A DNA stretch of 64,000 nt from Clostridiaceae bacterium. GTDB taxonomy: Bacteria; Bacillota; Clostridia; Saccharofermentanales; DTU023. Under the pieces are notes generated by a model that made no database searches, was not told the origin of the DNA, and saw only the letters and a list, made by a program, of their open reading frames with translations. The translations under genes were made by a program, and so were the position numbers. This document shows, piece after piece, positions 13,016 through 34,713 of this stretch; the first letter of the stretch is position 1; each line of letters begins with the position of its first letter. The stretch lies in contig DUOO01000027.1 of assembly GCA_012838795.1 (NCBI GenBank), positions 1 through 64,000 on the forward strand. Direction: 5' to 3'.

Positions 13016-14209
13016 TTATAAAGAAATGTTTTTACTATAAATTGAATCAAAATAATGATAAAAAGCCTTTGCCAGTTCTTCATTGATTACTTCATTGGCA
13101 ACTCTTGATAAACTGTAAATTTTATTGACATTAGTTCTGATTAAAAACGTGTGCTTCGGCTCGCTGTATATCATGACGTTCGGTATCTCAACATTCGCGG
13201 ATTTTCCGCTGTCAAGGACCAATGTTTTTGTTCTGACAAATTTTTTAGACAATTGATCAATGTCTTCCAGAAAATAATTTTTATATTTTTCTAATTGCAT
13301 AACACTGCCATGCACTTTGACAAATCCATGTTCAAAGGCATCAGATAATGCTTTAGAAGCGATAATAAACCTCGCATCTTGGACTTTTTCGTTATTCATG
13401 AAGAAATGAAACAAACTCCATATTTCGTATTCCGTACGATCAATCGCATTTTCTCTGTACATTTTTTCTTTTAGTTCTTGGCTGCCCATATAAAGATAAA
13501 TATGCGGTAAATATACATAAGCGGGAATTTGTTCTTCCCGGTTTTTTAAAACGTCGATAAAATCGGTAAATTTTTCTTTTACTGACATTGCTTTTTTACG
13601 ACGAGAAAAAGATTCGTGCAATTCCTGTAAACTCAACTCGCCGAGTTTATCGTTCAGACAGAAATATAATCCGTCCAAACGATCTTTTTCACAAAAACCT
13701 ATACCGTTTACTACATCTTCATAAGAAAAAAGAGCTATTGATTTCTTTTCTTTTGCCTCGTATATTTCAACATCAAAAGCCGGTATTTGGGAGATCAAAC
13801 GCAACAAATTATGAATATATAAATCAGAACGCTCACTGTCACGTTCATAATTAACAAATTCTTCATTTAATACATAGCTTAAATTAATACGGATCGGTCG
13901 TTCGACACGTATATTGGTTCGTTCACAGAGAAAGGACCAAATGTTATCATTAAAGTCTCCATCATAATAAAAGGAAAAGGGTTTTTCCCCTTTTGTCATT
14001 TGTTCTAATATATATTGAACCATTGGATGAAAATCATTGGTTTTTTCTATACTTACCTTCGTTTCATCAGCAATATTTTCCAGAATTTCATTCCAAATTT
14101 GAAGGACTCTGCTTTCTCCTGCCGAACTTTGTGTGTTTATTGTATGTTCTAATGTTTCCAGATAATCATCTTTCACGTTTAAAACAAATAAGCCTTTTTG
14201 ATTTTGCAT
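13016..14209 (-). CDS. Paralogue of the adjacent HTH proteins, without the HTH domain, 397 aa
   Basis: This protein aligns with the two genes upstream over their C-terminal four fifths. Shared blocks include LLRLISQIPAFDVEIYEAK (compare FFRLTSQLSF and SYFRLISSLPFLDLEIYEAK) and LPHIYLYMGSQELKEKMY followed by TEYEIW (compare TPRLYLYYGSDELREQM, then KEYELW). It lacks the N-terminal YDRSYISKW helix-turn-helix of its neighbours and starts directly near the middle domain; no remnant of the HTH was seen upstream. The ribosome site is weak (AGGTC). A cytoplasmic soluble protein of unknown function; it may form hetero-complexes with the HTH-bearing paralogues. Family not recognised. Confidence 0.75.
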   Translation of the reverse strand: MQNQKGLFVLNVKDDYLETLEHTINTQSSAGESRVLQIWNEILENIADETKVSIEKTNDFHPMVQYILEQMTKGEKPFSFYYDGDFNDNIWSFLCERTNIRVERPIRINLSYVLNEEFVNYERDSERSDLYIHNLLRLISQIPAFDVEIYEAKEKKSIALFSYEDVVNGIGFCEKDRLDGLYFCLNDKLGELSLQELHESFSRRKKAMSVKEKFTDFIDVLKNREEQIPAYVYLPHIYLYMGSQELKEKMYRENAIDRTEYEIWSLFHFFMNNEKVQDARFIIASKALSDAFEHGFVKVHGSVMQLEKYKNYFLEDIDQLSKKFVRTKTLVLDSGKSANVEIPNVMIYSEPKHTFLIRTNVNKIYSLSRVANEVINEELAKAFYHYFDSIYSKNISL

Positions 14210-14359
14210 ATATGACCTATTTCTATTAACATTTTATTGTTACATATATTTTTTTGTATCTTGTTAAATCTATATTAACCCAGAATATTTTCTATTTAAA
14301 GGAGTGAATCCTACCTTCACATTACTTTTTTATCTCTTACAGATGATTTACGCAAGAAA

Positions 14360-15766
14360 CTATAAAACAAAATTATTATTTTCGATAAAACGTAATTCAC
14401 CAAGATAACGATAAACGATATCGGATAAAGCAAGATCGTTTATTTTATAGAAAAATTGTCCGGTGACAAATGCATTGATTTGATTAGTTTGCAAATAAAA
14501 AGCGGTGACACCGTCGGAATATATACCATTTAACGGCAAGCGATCACTATTCTGTATCTGATTAGGAATCATATAAAAAATTCCTTTGGCTTTTCTCTCT
14601 TCTAACATAATTCGGATTTCAGCATTATAAGCCAATCTATCTTGATCATTTAATCGGAGAAATCCCTCACTTGTTCTGACTACACCTTCTTGCATGACAC
14701 GTTCAATTCCGAATTCCGGTATTAAAATGACTGCTTTTTGAATTATTTCTCCTTGACTTAAATCTGAAATGTCTTGCCAGACTTCATAATCCAGTCGTGA
14801 AATGAGTTTTTTTGCATATAATCTTTCACGTAAATCTTGTCCTGCCCAGTATAAAGGCAACGCCGGCAAATAAAAGAAACCTTTGTTTTCTGTTTGTTCT
14901 TGATTCGCCCATTGTAAAAATTTATCTGTGGACGGTTCAAGTTCAATCAACGGAGGTATATTAGAAAAATATTCTTCTAATTTTCTTTTGCCTTTTTCAA
15001 AAATGTGCGGATTATGCGTTATAAAAATCTTGAAATCATTATCCGGGGAAACGACAGTACCATAAAGATAGAAAACTTCATCCAAAGCACATTGGAAGTC
15101 CTGAACATCATCACGTATATAGGGAATAAATTCCAAAAATGACAGTTGTGAAGTAAGCCGGAAAAATTTGTGAATTTTCTTGATTGATTCATTTCTGTAA
15201 TTTTTTAACAAGCTTGAATCTGTTACAAAATGCAGTCGAAAATTATTATTGCTCGTATAAGGAAATTTCAATGCATCTATTCTTTCCGGTGTTAAAGCAT
15301 TAAAGACATCTCCTTGAAAATAGATATCTTTGGTAACTTCTGCACTGGTTGCCGCTTTATCAATGACATCAAACATAAAGGAAATGAATTCATCAGGACC
15401 ATTAAGCATCAAAGATATATTGGATGCATTAAAGAAATATTCTTTGGGATAAGTATCCAAATAGCTGGTGTTGAAAGCATCATCCAGTAAAGATTTGAGC
15501 AATTGTCTGTCTGAAGCTGTAGTACGCTCTGTTTTTATGCGAGGATTATTTATCGCAAGCTCCGTAAAATGCTCTTCTGACATTTTTTCAGAAAAATAGT
15601 CTGCTAATTGCGGGCTGATCTCATCCCAAACTTCTGCCGACGGAAGAGCTTTGCCATTATACCATTTACTGATATATGATCTGTCATAAGCAATAATTCT
15701 GGCAATGTCGGTAATTGTGGAATCGGTCATGTCGACCAACCTGCAAAATAAGTCGTTAAAATCCAT
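14360..15766 (-). CDS. HTH protein of an unrecognised paralogous family, 468 aa
   Basis: The first 45 residues form a helix-turn-helix (ITDIARIIAYDRSYISKW then YNGKALPS), of the lambda-repressor/XRE kind. The other 420 residues match no domain I recognise. They share with the neighbouring genes a segment of the form 'FFRLTSQLSFLEFIPY', a segment LPALPLYWAGQDLRERLY followed by DYEVW, and a C-terminal beta-rich part. The mid region (about residues 130-230) has the strand-helix pattern seen in PLD-like sensor domains such as the TrmB C-terminus, but this is only a resemblance. CGGAG precedes the ATG. Gap to the upstream paralogue is 77 bases, so cotranscription is likely. Probable role: ligand-sensing DNA-binding regulator. 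Confidence 0.8.
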   Translation of the reverse strand: MDFNDLFCRLVDMTDSTITDIARIIAYDRSYISKWYNGKALPSAEVWDEISPQLADYFSEKMSEEHFTELAINNPRIKTERTTASDRQLLKSLLDDAFNTSYLDTYPKEYFFNASNISLMLNGPDEFISFMFDVIDKAATSAEVTKDIYFQGDVFNALTPERIDALKFPYTSNNNFRLHFVTDSSLLKNYRNESIKKIHKFFRLTSQLSFLEFIPYIRDDVQDFQCALDEVFYLYGTVVSPDNDFKIFITHNPHIFEKGKRKLEEYFSNIPPLIELEPSTDKFLQWANQEQTENKGFFYLPALPLYWAGQDLRERLYAKKLISRLDYEVWQDISDLSQGEIIQKAVILIPEFGIERVMQEGVVRTSEGFLRLNDQDRLAYNAEIRIMLEERKAKGIFYMIPNQIQNSDRLPLNGIYSDGVTAFYLQTNQINAFVTGQFFYKINDLALSDIVYRYLGELRFIENNNFVL

Positions 15767-15843
15767 TTTGTTCTCCGATATTTTACACTTAATCTGCTAT
15801 TATAAGCTGTCCGCTATTATCTGCTGTTTTCTGCAACCTTCAC

Positions 15844-17247
15844 TTATTTTAAGAAGTTTTCATTTTCTATATTCATGATCGCTTTTAGCCAGTCATAAAT
15901 TAAATTAGTAAAAGTCTCATTTTTTGATTCATAAAGAATATTTCTTGTTTCATAAGGAGTCATCTGATTAAACTGCATGGCATAAGAACCGGTTTGATCA
16001 CCATATACGACGGACATAGGCAGACGACGCACATTCAAAATTTTCTCATCATCGAGAATAATCATGTTTTCTCGCTGAAACAATAAAAACAGGTCTTCCA
16101 TATATTTTTTATAATGATCACCGAAAAGTTGGAGGCCGCCATTACTCTGATAAATCCAGCCACGAGCAAAAGTGTCATTAAAAGAACTCCTCGTAATGAT
16201 GATTTTTGCCTGAGGTATCCCCGGTCTTAACAATATCGTCCGTATTTTCCCCCATAACTCATATTCCTTAATATTAATAAAACGATCTTCCAGCATCTGC
16301 TCTCTTAACTCGTCGGAACCATAATAAAGATATAGTCGAGGTGTATATAAAATAGGTGTGTTCGCCGGTAAATTCTTATCCATTTCCGTAAATTTTTCTA
16401 CAAAATTATCCAGTAAAGATAAAATCGGATTCTTTTCTTCGAAGAATTTTCTTAAACTCAGATGGCTTTCGTCAACGTTCTCCTTATTTTCGACAATAAA
16501 AAGAATTTCCGGTATTTCATTGATTAAGTCAAATCCCCAACCTGCCATCTTCCCTTTTTGGGCCATTCTTATAATATTATCTGTATTTCTTTTCGCTTCA
16601 TAAATTTCTAAATCCAGAAACGGCAGGCTGGAAATTAAACGGAAATATGAATTGATAAAATTTAATTTTTCATGATTGTCATTTAGCAGAAAATCCATAT
16701 TTATCGCAAATTTAACTTTGATACTATTCGGACTTATATAGTTAATGTAGATATTATCCAAAAGTCTGTTATTAAAACAACGAACAATATTACCGGTATA
16801 GTAAAATGTTGTATTATCCGACAGATCGCGGACATTCTGTGTCAAATAATTTATCAGATAATTTACCACATCTTCCGCACCTGTAAGAGTAATGGCGGAA
16901 GACTGCTCTTCATTTTTTCTTATTTCATCTCTGCTGGAAGTTCGGACATAAGACTTTTCCAGTAAATCAGCAATTAATTCTGCTTTAGATTGTTCTTTAT
17001 CACTATAGACAAGAGCTTGAATATAAGGATATTGGATTGACAAATACTCCATATCATTGACAGAAAGTTTTGCATCCAAAAATTTTGTCATATTTTCTTT
17101 TGTTTCCTGCCAGCCACTTAAAGAAGGCAACGCTCTGTCATTCACCCATTTGGAAATATAGGATCGATCATACAGAATGGCATTCGCAAACTCCTGAATA
17201 CTTGTATTCGATAAATATAGTAAGATATTTAGAATTTCACTAAAAAA
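15844..17247 (-). CDS. HTH protein of an unrecognised paralogous family, 467 aa
   Basis: Starting at ATG 17247 the protein has 467 residues, almost the same as its neighbour (468), and begins MFFSEILNILLYL before the helix-turn-helix IQEFANAILYDRSYISKW. The frame stays open to an ATG at 17304, but that extension is encoded inside a 31-base direct repeat and has no counterpart in the paralogue. YDRSYISKW is identical between the two. The rest is the shared unknown effector region, with SYFRLISSLPFLDLEIYEAK near residue 195 and YLYYGSDELREQM near residue 310. It is the first gene of the three-paralogue run on the minus strand. Function unknown; a regulator is inferred from the HTH. Confidence 0.8.
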   Translation of the reverse strand, partial: FFSEILNILLYLSNTSIQEFANAILYDRSYISKWVNDRALPSLSGWQETKENMTKFLDAKLSVNDMEYLSIQYPYIQALVYSDKEQSKAELIADLLEKSYVRTSSRDEIRKNEEQSSAITLTGAEDVVNYLINYLTQNVRDLSDNTTFYYTGNIVRCFNNRLLDNIYINYISPNSIKVKFAINMDFLLNDNHEKLNFINSYFRLISSLPFLDLEIYEAKRNTDNIIRMAQKGKMAGWGFDLINEIPEILFIVENKENVDESHLSLRKFFEEKNPILSLLDNFVEKFTEMDKNLPANTPILYTPRLYLYYGSDELREQMLEDRFINIKEYELWGKIRTILLRPGIPQAKIIITRSSFNDTFARGWIYQSNGGLQLFGDHYKKYMEDLFLLFQRENMIILDDEKILNVRRLPMSVVYGDQTGSYAMQFNQMTPYETRNILYESKNETFTNLIYDWLKAIMNIENENFLK

Positions 17248-17264
17248 CATCGAGAAATCCCACC

Positions 17265-17356
17265 CTGCTTCTCTATCTCCCGGGGATAATTCACCTTCGC
17301 ACATAAGCGTGAGGATAGAAACCTACTGCTTCTCTATCTCCCGGGGATAATTCACC
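17265..17356. repeat. 31-base direct repeat upstream of the first HTH paralogue
   Basis: Bases 17265-17295 and 17326-17356 are identical (each begins CTGCTTCTCTATCTCCC and includes the CCCGGG core). The period is 61 bases. One copy touches the ribosome-binding region of the 17247 start. The remaining part of the 17248-17621 gap is AT-rich, with TATAAT at 17535-17540 as a possible -10 box for the SDR gene. Confidence 0.85.
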
Positions 17357-28136: not shown

Positions 28137-28155
28137 TGCCGGACAATGTCCGGCA
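28137..28155 (-). terminator. Hairpin terminator between csoR and the convergent lipoprotein gene
   Basis: TGCCGGAC, three-base loop, GTCCGGCA. Read on the minus strand it is followed by TTTTTG, so it ends the lipoprotein transcript; it may also act on csoR. Confidence 0.7.
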
Positions 28156-28200
28156 AATTGACTTAATTCCATTATTCAGAACTTGTGATTTCAGGAGAAG

Positions 28201-29001
28201 TTAATTAATTTCTTCCATTGTTATGTTAATTTCAATGACATCACCGCGACCGTCAATGTCTTTAAGGATCATTCTGTCATTTGCTGTCCGGGAGTTTTCC
28301 GGACCTTCAAGCAATAAGGAAAAACGCAATGGTTTAACACTGCCCATATCGTAGTCATCTCTTAAAGCAAAAAACTCGGATTCGACTTCAAAAACCAGAA
28401 GATTATTATAGACTGTTGCATCATATTCCATTGGGCCTTGTCTGATTTTTGTTGAATCTAATGCTTGCTCATCATGGACAATTGAAAGCGGAGTAAGATA
28501 CATTTTGAAATTGTTTTCTATTACTTTGCCAAATTCAACCTTACATTCTATTTTTGATTGCCACTCTCGAGCCAAGGTACCCCGTAAAATATTTCTATTT
28601 CGTGTAATTACCAAAGACATATTCCATTTACTGACAATTTCATAGTCGGGTGTGGTGGGTTGAGGTTGGGTTGTTGTCGGTGACGTTTCAGGCACAGTCG
28701 TATCAGCCGGCACAGTTGTATCAGCGGGCACAGTCGTTGCATCCGGTGATGTGGTAGTTTCCGTTGCGGTTGCAGAAGTAAAAGTGACAGTATTGTACTG
28801 CTTTTTTGGTCCGGTTGAACTACTATAATAATTCGTTCTTGTCAGATCCGGATTTTTTAGATTATTATTTTGTGTCGGTTTATTACAACCGGAATTGATT
28901 GTACATAGACTGACAATAAAAACTAATAATATAAAATATCGCACAATACTGTTCACATTGAGTCTGCGAATATTTAATTGTTTGTTTTTAGCAAAATACA
29001 T
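28201..29001 (-). CDS. Lipoprotein with Thr/Pro-rich linker, 266 aa
   Basis: A signal peptide (IVRYFILLVFIVSLCTINSGC) ends in a lipobox near residue 39, followed by a Thr/Pro linker with three PADTTV or PETSPTT-type repeats, and then a 150-residue domain beginning near KWNMSLVITRNR with a conserved-looking beta-rich pattern. AGGA lies six bases before the ATG. The layout matches the three lipoproteins at 5-8 kb. No function can be given. It follows the subtilisin-like gene on the same strand, with a long palindrome between them. Confidence 0.72.
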   Translation of the reverse strand: MYFAKNKQLNIRRLNVNSIVRYFILLVFIVSLCTINSGCNKPTQNNNLKNPDLTRTNYYSSSTGPKKQYNTVTFTSATATETTTSPDATTVPADTTVPADTTVPETSPTTTQPQPTTPDYEIVSKWNMSLVITRNRNILRGTLAREWQSKIECKVEFGKVIENNFKMYLTPLSIVHDEQALDSTKIRQGPMEYDATVYNNLLVFEVESEFFALRDDYDMGSVKPLRFSLLLEGPENSRTANDRMILKDIDGRGDVIEINITMEEIN

Positions 29002-29013
29002 AATAGTCCTATG

Positions 29014-29052
29014 CAGATCTTTTCAAAATAATTGACTATTATTTTGAAAAGA
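29014..29052. repeat. Perfect 17-base inverted repeat before the lipoprotein gene
   Basis: GATCTTTTCAAAATAAT (29014-29030), five-base loop, then its exact reverse complement (29036-29052). It lies just upstream of the ribosome site of the 29001 start and below the stop of the protease gene. No T run follows the stem on the minus strand, so operator or mRNA-stability hairpin is as likely as terminator. Confidence 0.8.
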
Positions 29053-29120
29053 TCATTTGTTTTAATCTGTTAATATATTTGCTATTGTATCATTTTTTTT
29101 AAATGTTCATCTATCAATTA

Positions 29121-32100
29121 TCAGTGAGTAGGTACCTCATCTTCAAAATATTCATAGAACATTTCATTAATCGGTGTTATTACGCCATTGGAGTATTTTA
29201 AGACTTTCCATAAGGTTCCCGGTTGATTAGGTACTTCAAAGGTCTGAACTCCCGAAGAAGTATATGCCGTAATCGTAGCGCCTGATTCCGCCAATCCGTT
29301 TGAGGTGTCTTTGAGAGCGTTAGAATAGTCATGAACATAGATGATATAATCGCCTGATTGCTCTTCCAGTATGGTAATGGTTTCCGGACCATAACTGCTT
29401 GTATCATCAACGTCTAATTCATACTTGTTTTCTCCGCTGTCCGGATAGACTTTGTCATACCAGTAAACATGTCCGTATTCATCTCCGCCACTTCCCGGAC
29501 CTTTAATATGTAAGTCTAAATCATATGGTTTCTCGCCCCAACTGAGAACAAACCTTGCTTGTTCTGAAGTAATGTTCGGACTGAGAATCAGGTTTTGATT
29601 ATCCGAATTGGTATCCGCGACTGAAACTACCTCAGTCTCATTATCAATGTAACCTTCTTTGGTACCAACCATTCTGTATGTACCTTGCGGCAATTCAATT
29701 GAATAATTGCCTTCGCCGTCAACATTTAATTCTTGAACTTGTGAGTCACCGGAGAAGAATGTGAGTTTAACACCCGGTAAACCTTCGCCGTTAACTGCAT
29801 CGATTACTTGTCCTGATACCGTACCTGCAGTTGATTCCGGAGTCATTAATATATCCGGTAAAGCCAATGTACGACCTTCACCCATTGTGCTGAATTGTGT
29901 GACCTCTTCATCGTTATAACCTTCTGCACTAAAGACAAATTCATACGATCCGGGCATTAAAGTTTCAGAATATTTACCATTTCTATAAGTTCCCGATATA
30001 TCCGGCACATCATAGGCTGTAGCTAAAACATCAAACTCTGCAATCGGTTCAAGTGTGTTGGCATCCAAAACATTTGCCGTAACTGTATCAGTCTTGACTG
30101 CATCAGCCTGAACCGCCAAAGCAGCATTCACTACCGGAATTGCCCTTCCATCGTAATCCGGTGAAAATGTATCCGTTTCTTCCATCAAAATTCTCTTAAC
30201 CTGATCTGATGTATATTCCGGATTGGCGGCATAAATTAATGATGCCACACCTGCAGCATTAGGTGCTGCCATGGATGTCCCCGACATCAAGCCATATTCA
30301 TGATATGGAAGAGTATTGAAAATATCTGTTCCGGGAGCCGCTACATCGACCACTTCTCCGTAATTACTGAAATAAGATAACTCGTAACCTGCAACAGCCG
30401 GATATTTTGTGTCACTAAACGAATCGGGTGACACTTTTGTATTTTCGATTGAAGCAACTATCAACGTATGTCGCTTGCCGGCTTCTGTTCCGATTAAAGT
30501 GCGATTACAAAGAAATCCTGATGCGTCTTTAGCTTCATTACCTGCCGATTTAACCAATAAAAAGTCATAACCCAGTTCTTCCATGCGAGTACATAATTCA
30601 CCATAGCTATCCGTTTCCATTTGCTCCCAAGGAATCTGACCGGGTTCAGTTGTAACTCTATATCCAATACTATAATTAATTACACGACAGTCTAAACTTG
30701 CAAGTGTGACAATTGAAACATGAAATTCAAATGTACTTATTTCAGGATCATAATCGACATAATCAATAATTTCACGGGTTTCCGGATCCAAGTAAAAATG
30801 CCAGTAATGGAAAAAATACATCTCACAATCCCGGTTAACACCGGCGACGCCCAGACCGTTATTGGTTATAGCTCCGATTGTACCGGTGACATGAGTTCCA
30901 TGCTGCAAAAGACCCATATATCTCTCACCCGGTTCATTCGTTCCTTTTGCCCGGTAACGAACTAAGTCCTCCATATTGCGAATGTTCGGTGAAGGATGAA
31001 TGTAAACATTCTCAACCGGAATTAACAAGTCCTCGTGTTCGTACTGTAAACTTCCGTCTATGACACCGGCTTTAACATGTCCAAATTCCGGACCTTCCTC
31101 ATAAGCCTGCGGAACACGCATTACTTCCAGTCCCCAATTGTTGCCATCGGGATTTGTCAAATCCCAGCTATCCAAAAGACTATCATCGGGATAACTCGAG
31201 CCTTCAAGTTTGTGGACCATATTAAATACGGCAAATTCAACTTCCGGCTCTGCAGAAATATCTGCCTGCAATTGATTCAAATCAATATTCGGATCAGTAA
31301 AACGTAACTGATATTCGTTGATCAAAGGGATTTCACCAACTATTTCCGCACCGTATTTAAGGGCTATACTCTCCATATCTGCCCTGGTCGCATCCGCCTT
31401 CAGCAAAACTAATAATTCGTTGGCGATAATTGATGTTTCCTGATCGATTTCTTGTTTCGAACCTTCTTCATAAGGTGAAGAAAAACCTACATGTCGGGTC
31501 AAAACCAATTTTTCCGGTTGTGAATTGCCGAACAGTGTTTTTGTGTAAAGATAAAGAGTATTATTTCCTGTTTCTAAAGGTAAATTTCTTAAGTTAATTG
31601 TTTTCTCAAAAAAACCTCCTGTAGCGGAAACAGGCAGATACGAATTCAGATCATCCGGATTCTCAGGATTAAGTGCATAAAAAACTTCTCTGACTCCTTG
31701 ATTACATTTAACTTCAACATTATACTCGGCAAGCTGTTCACCGGTTGTTGACGGATCATCTTCACTTTCATAACTTAGTTTTCTGGGAAAGAGCAAGAAT
31801 GCCAAGACTGCTAAAATGACTGCTAAAGTACATAAACTGACAATTAAGCCTACTCGTTTTTTCTTTTTGGGAGGCTGTTCAGGCATAAGCGGCATCTGCT
31901 GCATCGGTTGCATCGGTTGCTGCATTGGTTGCATCGGCGGCTGCATCGGTTGCTGCATATAAGGCTGTTGAACCGGAGGAACACCGTAACTGTCCGATGG
32001 CGGTTGCATCGGTTGCTCCATATAAGGCTGTTGGCCCATTGGTTGTCCGGGGCTTCCATATCCCGGAGCTCCCTGCTGCATCGGAGGTTGCGAATAACCA

Positions 32101-32297
32101 CTCATCGGTTGTTGATCCGGTGGTTGTTGATCCGGTGGTTGTTGAGCTGCCGGATCAACATAGCCGGATGGCTCAGGACTGCCGGAAGCTTGCGGAGAAT
32201 CATTCGGATCGGCAGCTTGCGAAATCAATTTATTACCGCAATTAGAACAAAATGCCGCATCAGGTAAATTTTCAAAGTTACAATTATTACACTTCAT
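29121..32297 (-). CDS. Membrane-anchored subtilisin-like protease with N-terminal zinc ribbon
   Basis: A 1058-residue protein, start set by AAGGAG before ATG 32297. Order of parts: zinc ribbon (CNNC ... CSNCG, residues 3-22), Pro/Gln/Met-rich region to about 145, one membrane helix (VGLIVSLCTLAVILAVL), a pro-region (ELLVLLKADATRADME), then an S8 protease domain with Asp in AGVIDGSLQ, His in HGTHVTGTIG, and Ser in MSGTSMAAPNAAGVA, two carboxypeptidase-regulatory-like beta domains (for example GQVIDAVNGEGLPGVKL), and a C-terminal beta domain with LSWGEKPYDLDLHIKGPG, as in DUF2135/YfaP proteins. The zinc ribbon would sit in the cytoplasm and the protease outside. Confidence 0.85.
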   Translation of the reverse strand: MKCNNCNFENLPDAAFCSNCGNKLISQAADPNDSPQASGSPEPSGYVDPAAQQPPDQQPPDQQPMSGYSQPPMQQGAPGYGSPGQPMGQQPYMEQPMQPPSDSYGVPPVQQPYMQQPMQPPMQPMQQPMQPMQQMPLMPEQPPKKKKRVGLIVSLCTLAVILAVLAFLLFPRKLSYESEDDPSTTGEQLAEYNVEVKCNQGVREVFYALNPENPDDLNSYLPVSATGGFFEKTINLRNLPLETGNNTLYLYTKTLFGNSQPEKLVLTRHVGFSSPYEEGSKQEIDQETSIIANELLVLLKADATRADMESIALKYGAEIVGEIPLINEYQLRFTDPNIDLNQLQADISAEPEVEFAVFNMVHKLEGSSYPDDSLLDSWDLTNPDGNNWGLEVMRVPQAYEEGPEFGHVKAGVIDGSLQYEHEDLLIPVENVYIHPSPNIRNMEDLVRYRAKGTNEPGERYMGLLQHGTHVTGTIGAITNNGLGVAGVNRDCEMYFFHYWHFYLDPETREIIDYVDYDPEISTFEFHVSIVTLASLDCRVINYSIGYRVTTEPGQIPWEQMETDSYGELCTRMEELGYDFLLVKSAGNEAKDASGFLCNRTLIGTEAGKRHTLIVASIENTKVSPDSFSDTKYPAVAGYELSYFSNYGEVVDVAAPGTDIFNTLPYHEYGLMSGTSMAAPNAAGVASLIYAANPEYTSDQVKRILMEETDTFSPDYDGRAIPVVNAALAVQADAVKTDTVTANVLDANTLEPIAEFDVLATAYDVPDISGTYRNGKYSETLMPGSYEFVFSAEGYNDEEVTQFSTMGEGRTLALPDILMTPESTAGTVSGQVIDAVNGEGLPGVKLTFFSGDSQVQELNVDGEGNYSIELPQGTYRMVGTKEGYIDNETEVVSVADTNSDNQNLILSPNITSEQARFVLSWGEKPYDLDLHIKGPGSGGDEYGHVYWYDKVYPDSGENKYELDVDDTSSYGPETITILEEQSGDYIIYVHDYSNALKDTSNGLAESGATITAYTSSGVQTFEVPNQPGTLWKVLKYSNGVITPINEMFYEYFEDEVPTH

Positions 32298-32579
32298 CGT
32301 ATTTCTCCTTATTTTAAAAATAGGACAATAAATTCTGTTACTCAAAGAATCGACTGAAAACTCTATTTCATATTTTCAGAACTCTACTTCTATTCTATAA
32401 TATTTTAATTTTTTGTGTATTAGTTTTTTCAAACTTTTTGATTAAGAAAGATAAAGTTACGTCTGATATAATTATAAACTAAAATCATTAATTTGAATAA
32501 TCTTTACAGATATTTGTCAATGTCAAATGTTGTCACAAAATATGGTATGCCAATCATCTCATTCAAATCCGATCAATTG

Positions 32580-34436
32580 TTAATCCGTATATCCGGATTG
32601 TTCTGCCAATGCTTTCAGATAACGATTCAAACCGGTTACACTGAGTTGATGTTGAAATCTGATTAATAAATGCGGTTTGCTCATTTTTCGTAATAGTATT
32701 GTGTGCTTGTTAAATGAAAGTGCATGCAGGTTTTTGAAAGGTGAAGTATGTAAATTAATTACTTTGAGATTCGCAAATTCTTTCTGATATTTGTGCAAGG
32801 AATCCAGGCCAATTTGAAATTGTTCTCGAGAAAGCTTGATTATTTTAACATCGTTAGTGTGTGGCAACAAGACTATCAGGTCGGATCTGACTTGGTCATC
32901 AAACGGACCAATCAAAAATATCTCGCCTCTTGTCAGAAACTTCTTAAGAATCAGCCGGAGCTTTTCATTTTCAGTCAGAATTAAGCTAACGGTTCGGTTA
33001 TCCAAATTCGTTGCAGACAGGATTTCTTTGATAAAAATATCCGGGAAAAAACACATCGGAATCGTCGGATATAACAATATAACTTGATCTGCTTCTTCTT
33101 TTGCCGATTTATTGATTCCTTCTTTTTGCCATGTTTTAATAATTTCTTCACTGAATATGGCATCAGATTTGTAGAAATACATGATCGGTTCGGAGATTCT
33201 TTGCAACTGTTCAAATTGATCGCTCAGGTCTTTTAATTTATTGTACGAAGTATAGTAATGATACTCGCTTTGATCTTCCGCCCCTCTGATCATCTCAGCA
33301 TTAATCGCAGCATTGCCTGCATCTATAAATAATGTTTTAACCAATGGATTTCTATTCCCGCTGAGATTCAGACTGTCACAAGTATAGGCGGTAACATTGA
33401 CATTCATATGCAAAGGCAACCATTTTTCAATACCTAAGGTGATTTCTTCCGGAGAACGTCCTAAATAGTGAATGATTTCGATTTCATGACCTTGCTTAAC
33501 AATTGTATTCATGCAGATTAACCAGGTTTGCATGAAATTTTTGTCGGTTGCCAACCAATCCATTTCCTGATTTGAAAACAACTGAAGTTTTCTCTTCTCT
33601 TCACTTAAAATTATATCTGTGAAAAATCTTATGACTGCTTCACGCAAGCCGGCAATCCCACGGTATGATTCTTGTTTCTTTACCGCGCCGAGAGTTTGAA
33701 AGTAAACAGAGTCCGGTTGAATCAATTCTAATTTATTGCCATGCCAATCATTGATTTTATCCAATATGTTTTTCACATTTTGTTGCACAACAATTGATTC
33801 ATTTTGAATTGACAAAAACCAAGAAGCAAGATTCTCTGCCGTATTAAAAGCGGGACCTTTCTCTATGAAAGCGATAAAATGTTGCTGTGGCATTGTAAGT
33901 TTATAGTTTTGTTTTTTTTCAATAATATTTGTGAAATAATTAATCATTGTTTCCAGTGCAGGATTGTCATTTTTCAGCAATCTTGCTCCGTTACGCCAAC
34001 GGCTGATCAGTGAATTGTCCAAATTAAGAGCATTCGCCAAACGAGCATTTGATATCGAAAAAGTTTGCATAAAAAAATCCAGTTTTCGATCAAAGTCAGG
34101 TACATAGTTTTCCGGTCGGGTTGTATCATCATCAATTTCCTTCAGGAAAAACGATTCGGAAATCTTTAACAACTCATTGAATAATTCTGATTTGTTATGT
34201 GCGTATTGTTGACATTCAACAAGTTCACATAGTTCCGAAATTTGATTGCGTTCTTCTGCCAATTTAATAATTCCCGAAACAATCCGATTTAAGTGATCCT
34301 GATTATTAACCGGCGATCTCGCCCCGCGACGATAACGACTGATTGTACTGGCATGGATTCCTGAGCAATCAGCTATCTCAATATTTTTGAATTTTAATTT
34401 GTTTTGTATTTGGTTTAACCAATCAGAAAACCGCAT
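32580..34436 (-). CDS. Large protein with two N-terminal helix-turn-helix motifs, related to the 13-17 kb paralogues
   Basis: Starting at ATG 34436 (AAGGTGG upstream) the protein has 618 residues. Two HTH motifs follow each other: IEIADCSGIHASTISRYRRG (about 18-37) and ARLANALNLDNSLISRWRNG (about 120-139). A middle domain reads LREAVIRFFTDIILSEE, then KLQLFSNQEMDWL and a GHEIEIIHY block with GIEKWLPLHM; the same order occurs, more divergently, in the HTH proteins at 14.4-17.2 kb. The C-terminal 200 residues are unrecognised. The domain type is found in other clostridial HTH proteins to my knowledge, but its ligand is unknown. Probably a DNA-binding sensor. Confidence 0.72.
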   Translation of the reverse strand: MRFSDWLNQIQNKLKFKNIEIADCSGIHASTISRYRRGARSPVNNQDHLNRIVSGIIKLAEERNQISELCELVECQQYAHNKSELFNELLKISESFFLKEIDDDTTRPENYVPDFDRKLDFFMQTFSISNARLANALNLDNSLISRWRNGARLLKNDNPALETMINYFTNIIEKKQNYKLTMPQQHFIAFIEKGPAFNTAENLASWFLSIQNESIVVQQNVKNILDKINDWHGNKLELIQPDSVYFQTLGAVKKQESYRGIAGLREAVIRFFTDIILSEEKRKLQLFSNQEMDWLATDKNFMQTWLICMNTIVKQGHEIEIIHYLGRSPEEITLGIEKWLPLHMNVNVTAYTCDSLNLSGNRNPLVKTLFIDAGNAAINAEMIRGAEDQSEYHYYTSYNKLKDLSDQFEQLQRISEPIMYFYKSDAIFSEEIIKTWQKEGINKSAKEEADQVILLYPTIPMCFFPDIFIKEILSATNLDNRTVSLILTENEKLRLILKKFLTRGEIFLIGPFDDQVRSDLIVLLPHTNDVKIIKLSREQFQIGLDSLHKYQKEFANLKVINLHTSPFKNLHALSFNKHTILLRKMSKPHLLIRFQHQLSVTGLNRYLKALAEQSGYTD

Positions 34437-34713
34437 TGAAAACCACCTTGCTCTATTAATACAATGCTGCTTAACCTTAAGTATACAATTTAATCCCAAG
34501 TTCATTCAAACAAAGAACGAGATTACAAATATTAACAGGAAATCAGAACTTATTATTTTTCAGTATTCTTATTTTCAGGTTATTTGGAAAATATAATATA
34601 TAGATTGCTGAAATATAATATAATATATTGTAATATTTACAGAGTATATATTATATCGTAAGAATAATAACACTGCTAATTACTTATAACAAATTATCAT
34701 GCTCTGAGCATAC
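34437..34713. other. AT-rich divergent promoter gap
   Basis: A 277-base spacer between the double-HTH gene and the divergent CapA-like gene. It is extremely AT-rich (for example 34615-34660) and holds many TATAAT-like strings, but no single promoter or operator can be picked with confidence. Confidence 0.4.

Follow-up and report, generated by a model that had tools for sequence, protein, structure and literature searches.

A predicted Bacillota regulator combining two XRE-type HTHs with a putative non-catalytic PLD-fold body, and its apparent distant kinship with a three-gene cluster

A stretch of 64,000 nucleotides from a Clostridiaceae bacterium (the window) was analyzed around the minus-strand gene for P0001. 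This protein is probably a one-component regulator, in which two HTHs would be joined to a non-catalytic, two-lobed PLD-fold sensor body, and would be distant kin of the proteins encoded at 13–17 kb. Relatives of P0001 are called branch A and proteins of the P0002–P0004 type branch B. The features of P0001 are as follows.

32580–34436, minus strand: P0001, 618-aa predicted regulator with two XRE-type HTHs and a two-lobed PLD-fold region; the longest frame has 641 codons, from 34505
34251–34436, minus strand: HTH 1, residues 24–85 of the 641-aa frame (family HTH profile, E 1.2e-9)
33912–34100, minus strand: HTH 2, the HTH common to the family, residues 136–198 (family HTH profile, E 8.5e-26)
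33183–33683, minus strand: PLD-fold lobe 1, model residues 252–418, with LFSNQ, GHEIEIIHY, and GIEKWLPL
32598–33182, minus strand: second lobe, putatively PLD-like, model residues 419–613, DSSP order as in lobe 1

P0001 is a real reading frame and its homologues are not due to chance. The frame at 32580–34505 (minus strand) contains 641 codons from the ATG at 34505 and 618 from the ATG at 34436. The shorter version was preferred because AAGGTGG, a good ribosome-binding site, lies six bases 5ʹ of the ATG at 34436, and because the frame of the closest relative (L100 in genome G003, 53–56% identical) begins three residues before the 618-aa start. Domain scans covered 19 and 26 branch-A members with Pfam, 26 with NCBIfam, 19 with PHROGs (first 25 of 36 families), and P0001–P0004 with PADLOC. 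Among the matches listed, no model fell on the approximately 400 residues beyond the HTHs, which several members have in common; Pfam and NCBIfam recognized the HTHs alone, weakly, and one more NCBIfam line (E 0.17) was noise. The sole PADLOC match of P0001, to RmrA, falls in the HTH, as does the RmrA match of P0003, and this assignment was rejected. When P0001 alone was used as the query, a first scan of genome contigs gave no relative. Two patterns searched against viral contigs gave 47 matches, none of which was confirmed as encoding a relative; a phage origin of the family is therefore unsupported by the patterns used.

The initial annotation described two HTH motifs in series in the 618-residue protein, and both were recovered by the family HTH profile at the E values given above and are helical in the AlphaFold model. 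Pfam HTH_3 matched HTH 1 at E 0.0012, under the cut-off, and the HTHs of P0001 stay below the Pfam cut-offs (19.2 vs. 23 bits). Across branch A, the XRE HTH was detected as HTH_3 in 14 of 19 and 22 of 26 members (Pfam, E <= 0.1), the best at 5.3e-8. Model residues 1–101 matched DdrO (Z 8.5) and residues 1–97 matched P22 c2 (Z 8.4), while HTH 2 contains the most conserved columns, D163, S165, and S168. According to the family HTH profile, 19 of the 64 branch-A proteins carry two HTHs and 45 are without the second, including two with no HTH at all, L049 (cut by a contig end) and L079. A quick, unrooted tree was built from 63 rows with the HTH 1 columns removed and the fragment L040 omitted, and its branch support is by SH-aLRT only, with no bootstrap. 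On this tree, the two-HTH members fall in a single group of 19 rows (SH-aLRT 97), and the HTH-number label changes twice, compared to a shuffled mean of 15.9. From these sequences, the two-HTH members appear to form one clade with one loss, in L041.

The structure of the body was predicted with AlphaFold2 from P0001 and 25 relatives (mean pLDDT 80.4, pTM 0.58). Upon comparing lobe 1 with known structures by VIA-align, we obtained Z scores of 14.9 for TrmBL2 (5bpi_C; rmsd 2.5, 137 aligned), 14.3 for human PLD4, 14.0 for Nuc (1byr), 13.7 for TrmB (2f5t_X), and 13.0 for FAM83B (5qhm). The top Foldseek match of the P0001 body was also TrmBL2 (5bpd_C, E 7.6e-5), and the structure search further matched NucT, PLD3, and the PLD-type restriction enzymes BfiI and NgoAVII. 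In the model, residues 252–418 thus have a PLD fold, nearest to archaeal TrmBL2 and then to TrmB, and the earlier proposal of a PLD-like fold as in TrmB holds for P0001's own body. Profile searches of the P0001 family against PDB sequences found no match to the body.

By DSSP, the elements of the second lobe come in the order seen in lobe 1: strand, helix, strand, helices, strand(s), helix, four strands, helix. PLD3 and F13 chains aligned with residues ~250–617 of P0001 over 239–260 residues at an rmsd of 16.1–16.6; such high values would be expected if both lobes match in a different mutual orientation. The two lobes compared by hhalign were weakly positive (P 19, E 0.0012). The order of elements and the loose alignments suggest that lobe 2 is also PLD-like.

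In PLD enzymes, a strand pair carries HxKxxxxD...GS. We take residues 388–406 of P0001 (LVKTLFID) to be its counterpart, and the columns there show no conserved H, K, or D. The HxKxxxxD motif, searched anywhere in the sequence, was found in none of the 64 branch-A members. The string occurs in 3 of 21 branch-B and group-C rows (one a duplicate row), at one site in P0004-type proteins, and was rejected as a catalytic motif, as it sits in a predicted helix. H346, R350, W362, and P364 are conserved in 67%–81% of branch-A members and might line a pocket.

The proteins at 13–17 kb to which P0001 was compared are the following.

15844–17304, minus strand: P0004, distant relative with one HTH (branch B)
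14360–15766, minus strand: P0003, distant relative with one HTH (branch B)
13016–14209, minus strand: P0002, distant relative without HTH (branch B)

P0004 is clearly homologous to P0003 (24% identity, E 2e-42) and to P0002 (E 4e-29). BLASTP of P0001 against the three gave HTH-level or chance matches alone, with nothing outside the HTH. A first comparison of branch-A and branch-B profiles with the HTHs included (P 96.2) was mostly driven by the HTHs and was therefore redone without them. Small first alignments then gave P 31.7–62.5. With larger HTH-free hhalign profiles (A, 64 rows, of which 62 were kept; B, 11 rows; C, 8 sequences), A matched B at P 93.4 and E 2.5e-7 over 259 columns, A matched C at P 96.5 and E 7.4e-10, and C matched B at P 93.1 and E 3.2e-7, while five reversed profiles and 15 comparisons with five unrelated neighbour families stayed at P <= 0.5% and E >= 0.11. 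Group C (L090–L097) consists of one-HTH proteins, 478–525 aa long, which connect branch A with branch B when profiles are compared; all eight were found with the B profile and seven also by the A profile (E <= 1e-6). These HTH-free profiles support distant kinship of P0001 with P0002–P0004, probably through a common ancestor over the post-HTH region, and agree with the earlier claim of distant membership, taken at the level of one superfamily.

The signal sits in the second lobe, as the second part of A matched B at P 84.4 and C at P 96.9. The middle domain of A alone showed no significant similarity to B (P 0.4%, E 0.14) or to C (P 0.5) by hhalign. The initial annotation had named a lack of significant profile similarity between the middle domains as grounds for refuting its claim, and this test is negative at the sequence level. 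The register of the middle domain alone against B equals that of the long alignment, and the A–B profile alignment is collinear over 320 columns, placing KLQLFSNQ against TTFYYTGN, the EIEIIHYLGR strand against VKFAINMDFL, and IEKWLPL..VNVTAYT against FRLISSLPFLDLEIYE. LFSNQ, GHEIEIIHY, and GIEKWLPL lie at residues 309, 339, and 358 of P0001 (641-aa numbering). P0002, P0003, and P0004 contain none of them, and the looser patterns W[LM]PL and GHxIx[IV]IH are likewise missing from all three. The described parallel with the 13–17 kb proteins is therefore one of element order only, which is in register in the profile alignment but is accompanied neither by shared strings nor by similarity of the middle domain alone. 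A model of P0004 from three sequences only (pLDDT 45.4) was too poor to use, and its weak structure matches (Z <= 3.8), many of them to PLD chains, were counted as a hint only.

The family was previously said to hold four members in the window with zero, one, one, and two HTHs and to be expanding in this genome. The counts are correct (P0002, P0003, P0004, and P0001, respectively), but the expansion is not upheld: the genome has one branch-A gene and one inherited branch-B cluster of three genes, of which the group-C profile recovers just two. This cluster (13016–17304) runs P0004–P0003–P0002, that is, HTH, HTH, no HTH, and the three are possibly subunits of one complex. It is whole in G022 and G053 and has two genes in G005, which makes 4 of 148 genomes including its own; the flanking genes differ between the window and G005. 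Because of this distribution, the 13–17 kb set is inherited or transferred, with no recent local expansion.

With P0001 as the query, homologues were found in 19 of 148 related genomes (its own counted; in G004 a short remnant only), and the A5 profile likewise placed branch A in 19 of 148. The A1 profile matched 40 of the 341 class-level genomes (in some, through the HTH alone), and a scan of named genomes gave 28 branch-A loci. Branch-A loci occur in metagenome-assembled genomes labelled Clostridiaceae, Fastidiosipila, and Oscillospiraceae and in strains of Clostridium, Tissierella, Lutispora, and Paenibacillus, and the match in L127 (Parvularculaceae) is by the HTH only. In L040 (8173–10068; G010, and L101, Fastidiosipila), a branch-A gene is interrupted by in-frame stops or frameshifts and is either a pseudogene or an assembly error. 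Among the matches listed for open PMC text, there was no paper on such an HTH and PLD-fold family.

Downstream of P0001, the window contains a cassette on the same strand.

32513–32527, minus strand: candidate operator or −35 region TTTGACATTGACAAA, between regulator and subtilase, suggestive only
29121–32345, minus strand: cassette partner, zinc-ribbon membrane subtilase (Pfam, pattern and TM scan, synteny)
28201–29001, minus strand: cassette partner, 266-aa putative lipoprotein without Pfam match
28137–28155, minus strand: terminator-like hairpin 3ʹ of the last cassette gene

P0001 is followed by the subtilase, the putative lipoprotein, and the hairpin. The protein at 29121–32345 has an N-terminal zinc ribbon, a Pro/Gln-rich stretch, one TM, a subtilase (S8) domain, and CarboxypepD_reg, and its gene likely starts at the ATG at 32297. 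Its translation shows what we take to be the D, H, and S motifs typical of subtilases. Regulator, subtilase, and lipoprotein occur together in G000 and G003, where a 365-aa frame of G003 partly matches the lipoprotein. G004 has kept the subtilase and lipoprotein, with the regulator reduced to residues 588–641 or 591–641 and ~2.2 kb extra before an 88-aa gene. In G001 and G005, the 88-aa gene and CapA stand 379 and 73 bases apart, respectively, with no cassette gene between them; G002 and G006 have no syntenic CapA and are uninformative on the site. The cassette is present or absent as a block in the lineage near the window, and its presence, absence, and regulator loss are all seen within one genus (28137–34436, L156, L157, L158, and L100).

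The subtilase was found in 14 and the regulator in 19 of 148 genomes, and both in five (G000, G003, G004, G045, and G053). The regulator or its remnant adjoins the subtilase in all five, in two gene orders: it follows two and three subtilase genes in G045 and G053, compared with its position before one elsewhere. Upstream of the regulator, zinc-ribbon subtilase genes form tandem arrays, of three in L042 (2866–11998) and of two in L043 (11635–18200). The link is not obligatory, since 14 of the 19 branch-A genomes are without the subtilase (E <= 1e-30) and a relative of the subtilase occurs in nine genomes that lack the regulator. A block similar to TTTGACATTGACAAA, which overlaps a −35-like hexamer, is present in G003 and G004. 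Searching the window for it at <= 2 mismatches gave two matches, a number also reached in 18 of 100 shuffles and so no higher than chance. The gaps that precede the regulator and the subtilase share repeats of 9–11 bases only, in a comparison made without a control.

The wider neighbourhoods were assessed for 64 branch-A loci, after 65 had been examined and L055 gave no match at the threshold; G004 and most copies were excluded, and L112 is a copy of L052. Proteins with an N-terminal zinc ribbon made up 9 of 122 immediate neighbours vs. 5 of 594 other genes (p 8.7e-5), a count that is not independent because the idea arose on the first 40 neighbourhoods. After splitting, the 35 earlier loci gave 7/66 vs. 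2/323 (p 8e-5), and the link was not replicated in the 28 later loci (2/54 vs. 3/266, p 0.20), where the neighbours in L161 and L164 are on the opposite strand and have two TMs. With four related or duplicate loci dropped, the figures were 6/114 vs. 4/559 (p 0.002). Zinc-ribbon neighbours were rejected as a family-wide rule, having failed in the 28 new loci; it stands firm in the clade near the window and, because of the split test, is unproven for the family. Predicted TM proteins made up 65 of 122 immediate neighbours vs. 206 of 594 other genes in the 64 loci (p 1.0e-4) and 25/54 vs. 92/266 in the 28 later loci (p 0.07). In L039 (10089–10997, G056), a 302-aa zinc-ribbon, one-TM non-protease replaces the subtilase beside a close P0001 relative. 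Neighbours at other branch-A loci include MatE, CNNM, a chemotaxis receptor, and EF-G. A chemotaxis receptor lies near the regulator in eight loci (L116, L117, L119, L120, L122, L124, L125, and L126), adjoining it in five and on the opposite strand in all except L126; the L116 receptor is an MCP with dCache (Pfam), and the other seven were assigned by similarity.

For P0001, we infer both a ligand and targets. The two N-terminal XRE-type HTHs would bind DNA, and the C-terminal two-lobed, non-catalytic PLD-fold region would serve as the sensor and oligomerization body, by analogy with TrmB. A ligand meeting this body would alter DNA binding, as in archaeal TrmB. The nearest target is probably its own cassette, the downstream zinc-ribbon membrane-anchored subtilase and the lipoprotein, because their adjacency is conserved and they are jointly present or absent. 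A bolder version, which we consider quite improbable, and more so after the split test, is that the PLD-fold body docks the regulator on the zinc-ribbon tail that the neighbouring one-TM protein, here a subtilase, would have in the cytoplasm; an event outside the cell would then reach the promoter through release of the regulator. If true, this would constitute a signalling cassette of regulator and zinc-ribbon anchor, gained or lost as a unit in this lineage, with an outer domain that senses or cuts.

The main rival to a sensor role is that the body acts as a scaffold, either architectural or for binding proteins, in the manner of TrmBL2 or the pseudo-PLD FAM83 proteins, so that P0001 would be an adaptor-like or structural DNA-binding protein. 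We regard this as unlikely, though it is retained because PMC4877046 reports TrmBL2, the best structural match, to be without the sugar-binding subdomain of TrmB. FAM83B also matches the body, at the Z score given above; a review (PMC6008594) refers in its title to FAM83 proteins as pseudo-PLDs and anchors for CK1 isoforms. However, a family with one to three matches per genome, absent in most relatives and lost in sister genomes, is unlike a chromatin protein, and the conserved H346, R350, W362, and P364 might line a pocket.

A common origin with the 13–17 kb proteins could also be spurious: P0001 and these proteins may be unrelated beyond the HTH, as independent fusions of XRE HTHs to PLD-like bodies or through a profile artefact. 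The near-zero probability for the middle domains alone, the unusable branch-B model, and the modest scores of the small HTH-free alignments are in its favour, whereas the larger HTH-free alignments, the consistent bridge through group C, the 20 low-scoring controls, and the collinearity of the A–B alignment make it improbable. Least credible is that the members are HTH-bearing enzymes of the PLD type (nucleases or phospholipases), acting in defence, for instance. The fold does match Nuc, NucT, PLD3, BfiI, and NgoAVII, but the absence of HxKxxxxD from all 64 branch-A members and the confinement of the only PADLOC match to the HTH render an enzymatic role highly improbable. The non-catalytic regulator remains our preferred reading.

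Compared with known systems, P0001 shares with XRE/Cro-C1 repressors (DdrO, P22 c2, and RstR) the HTH domains but differs in that these precede a PLD-fold body of ~400 residues. With the PLD superfamily (Nuc, PLD3/4, and vaccinia F13) it shares the lobe-1 fold and, with PLD3 and F13, two lobes per chain, whereas the P0001 family is without the HxKxxxxD of the enzymes. What appears new is the joining of a motif-less, two-lobed PLD-fold body to XRE-type HTHs, of which one clade carries two. An unnamed, broad family of Bacillota regulators thus appears to carry the PLD fold minus its catalytic motif, which offers structure-based hypotheses for many proteins otherwise named only "XRE family", and the presence, absence, and regulator loss of the cassette in one genus make function testable. 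TrmB and TrmBL2, the archaeal sugar regulators and chromatin protein, resemble P0001 in combining an N-terminal HTH with a PLD-like body. According to PMC4158304, PF01978 is the DNA-binding domain of TrmB proteins, and TrmB and TrmBL1 also possess the effector domain PF11495. Neither family matched P0001 (E <= 1) or was among the families listed for the 19 and 26 members (E <= 0.1; 25 of 28 families for the 26), and P0001 is therefore most likely TrmB-like in plan but not a member of the TrmB family. TrmB has a PF01978 HTH and is found in Archaea, whereas P0001 has XRE-type HTHs (two in its clade) and two lobes per chain and belongs to Bacillota; the P0001 family would thus be a bacterial counterpart to TrmB, assembled from other DNA-binding parts.
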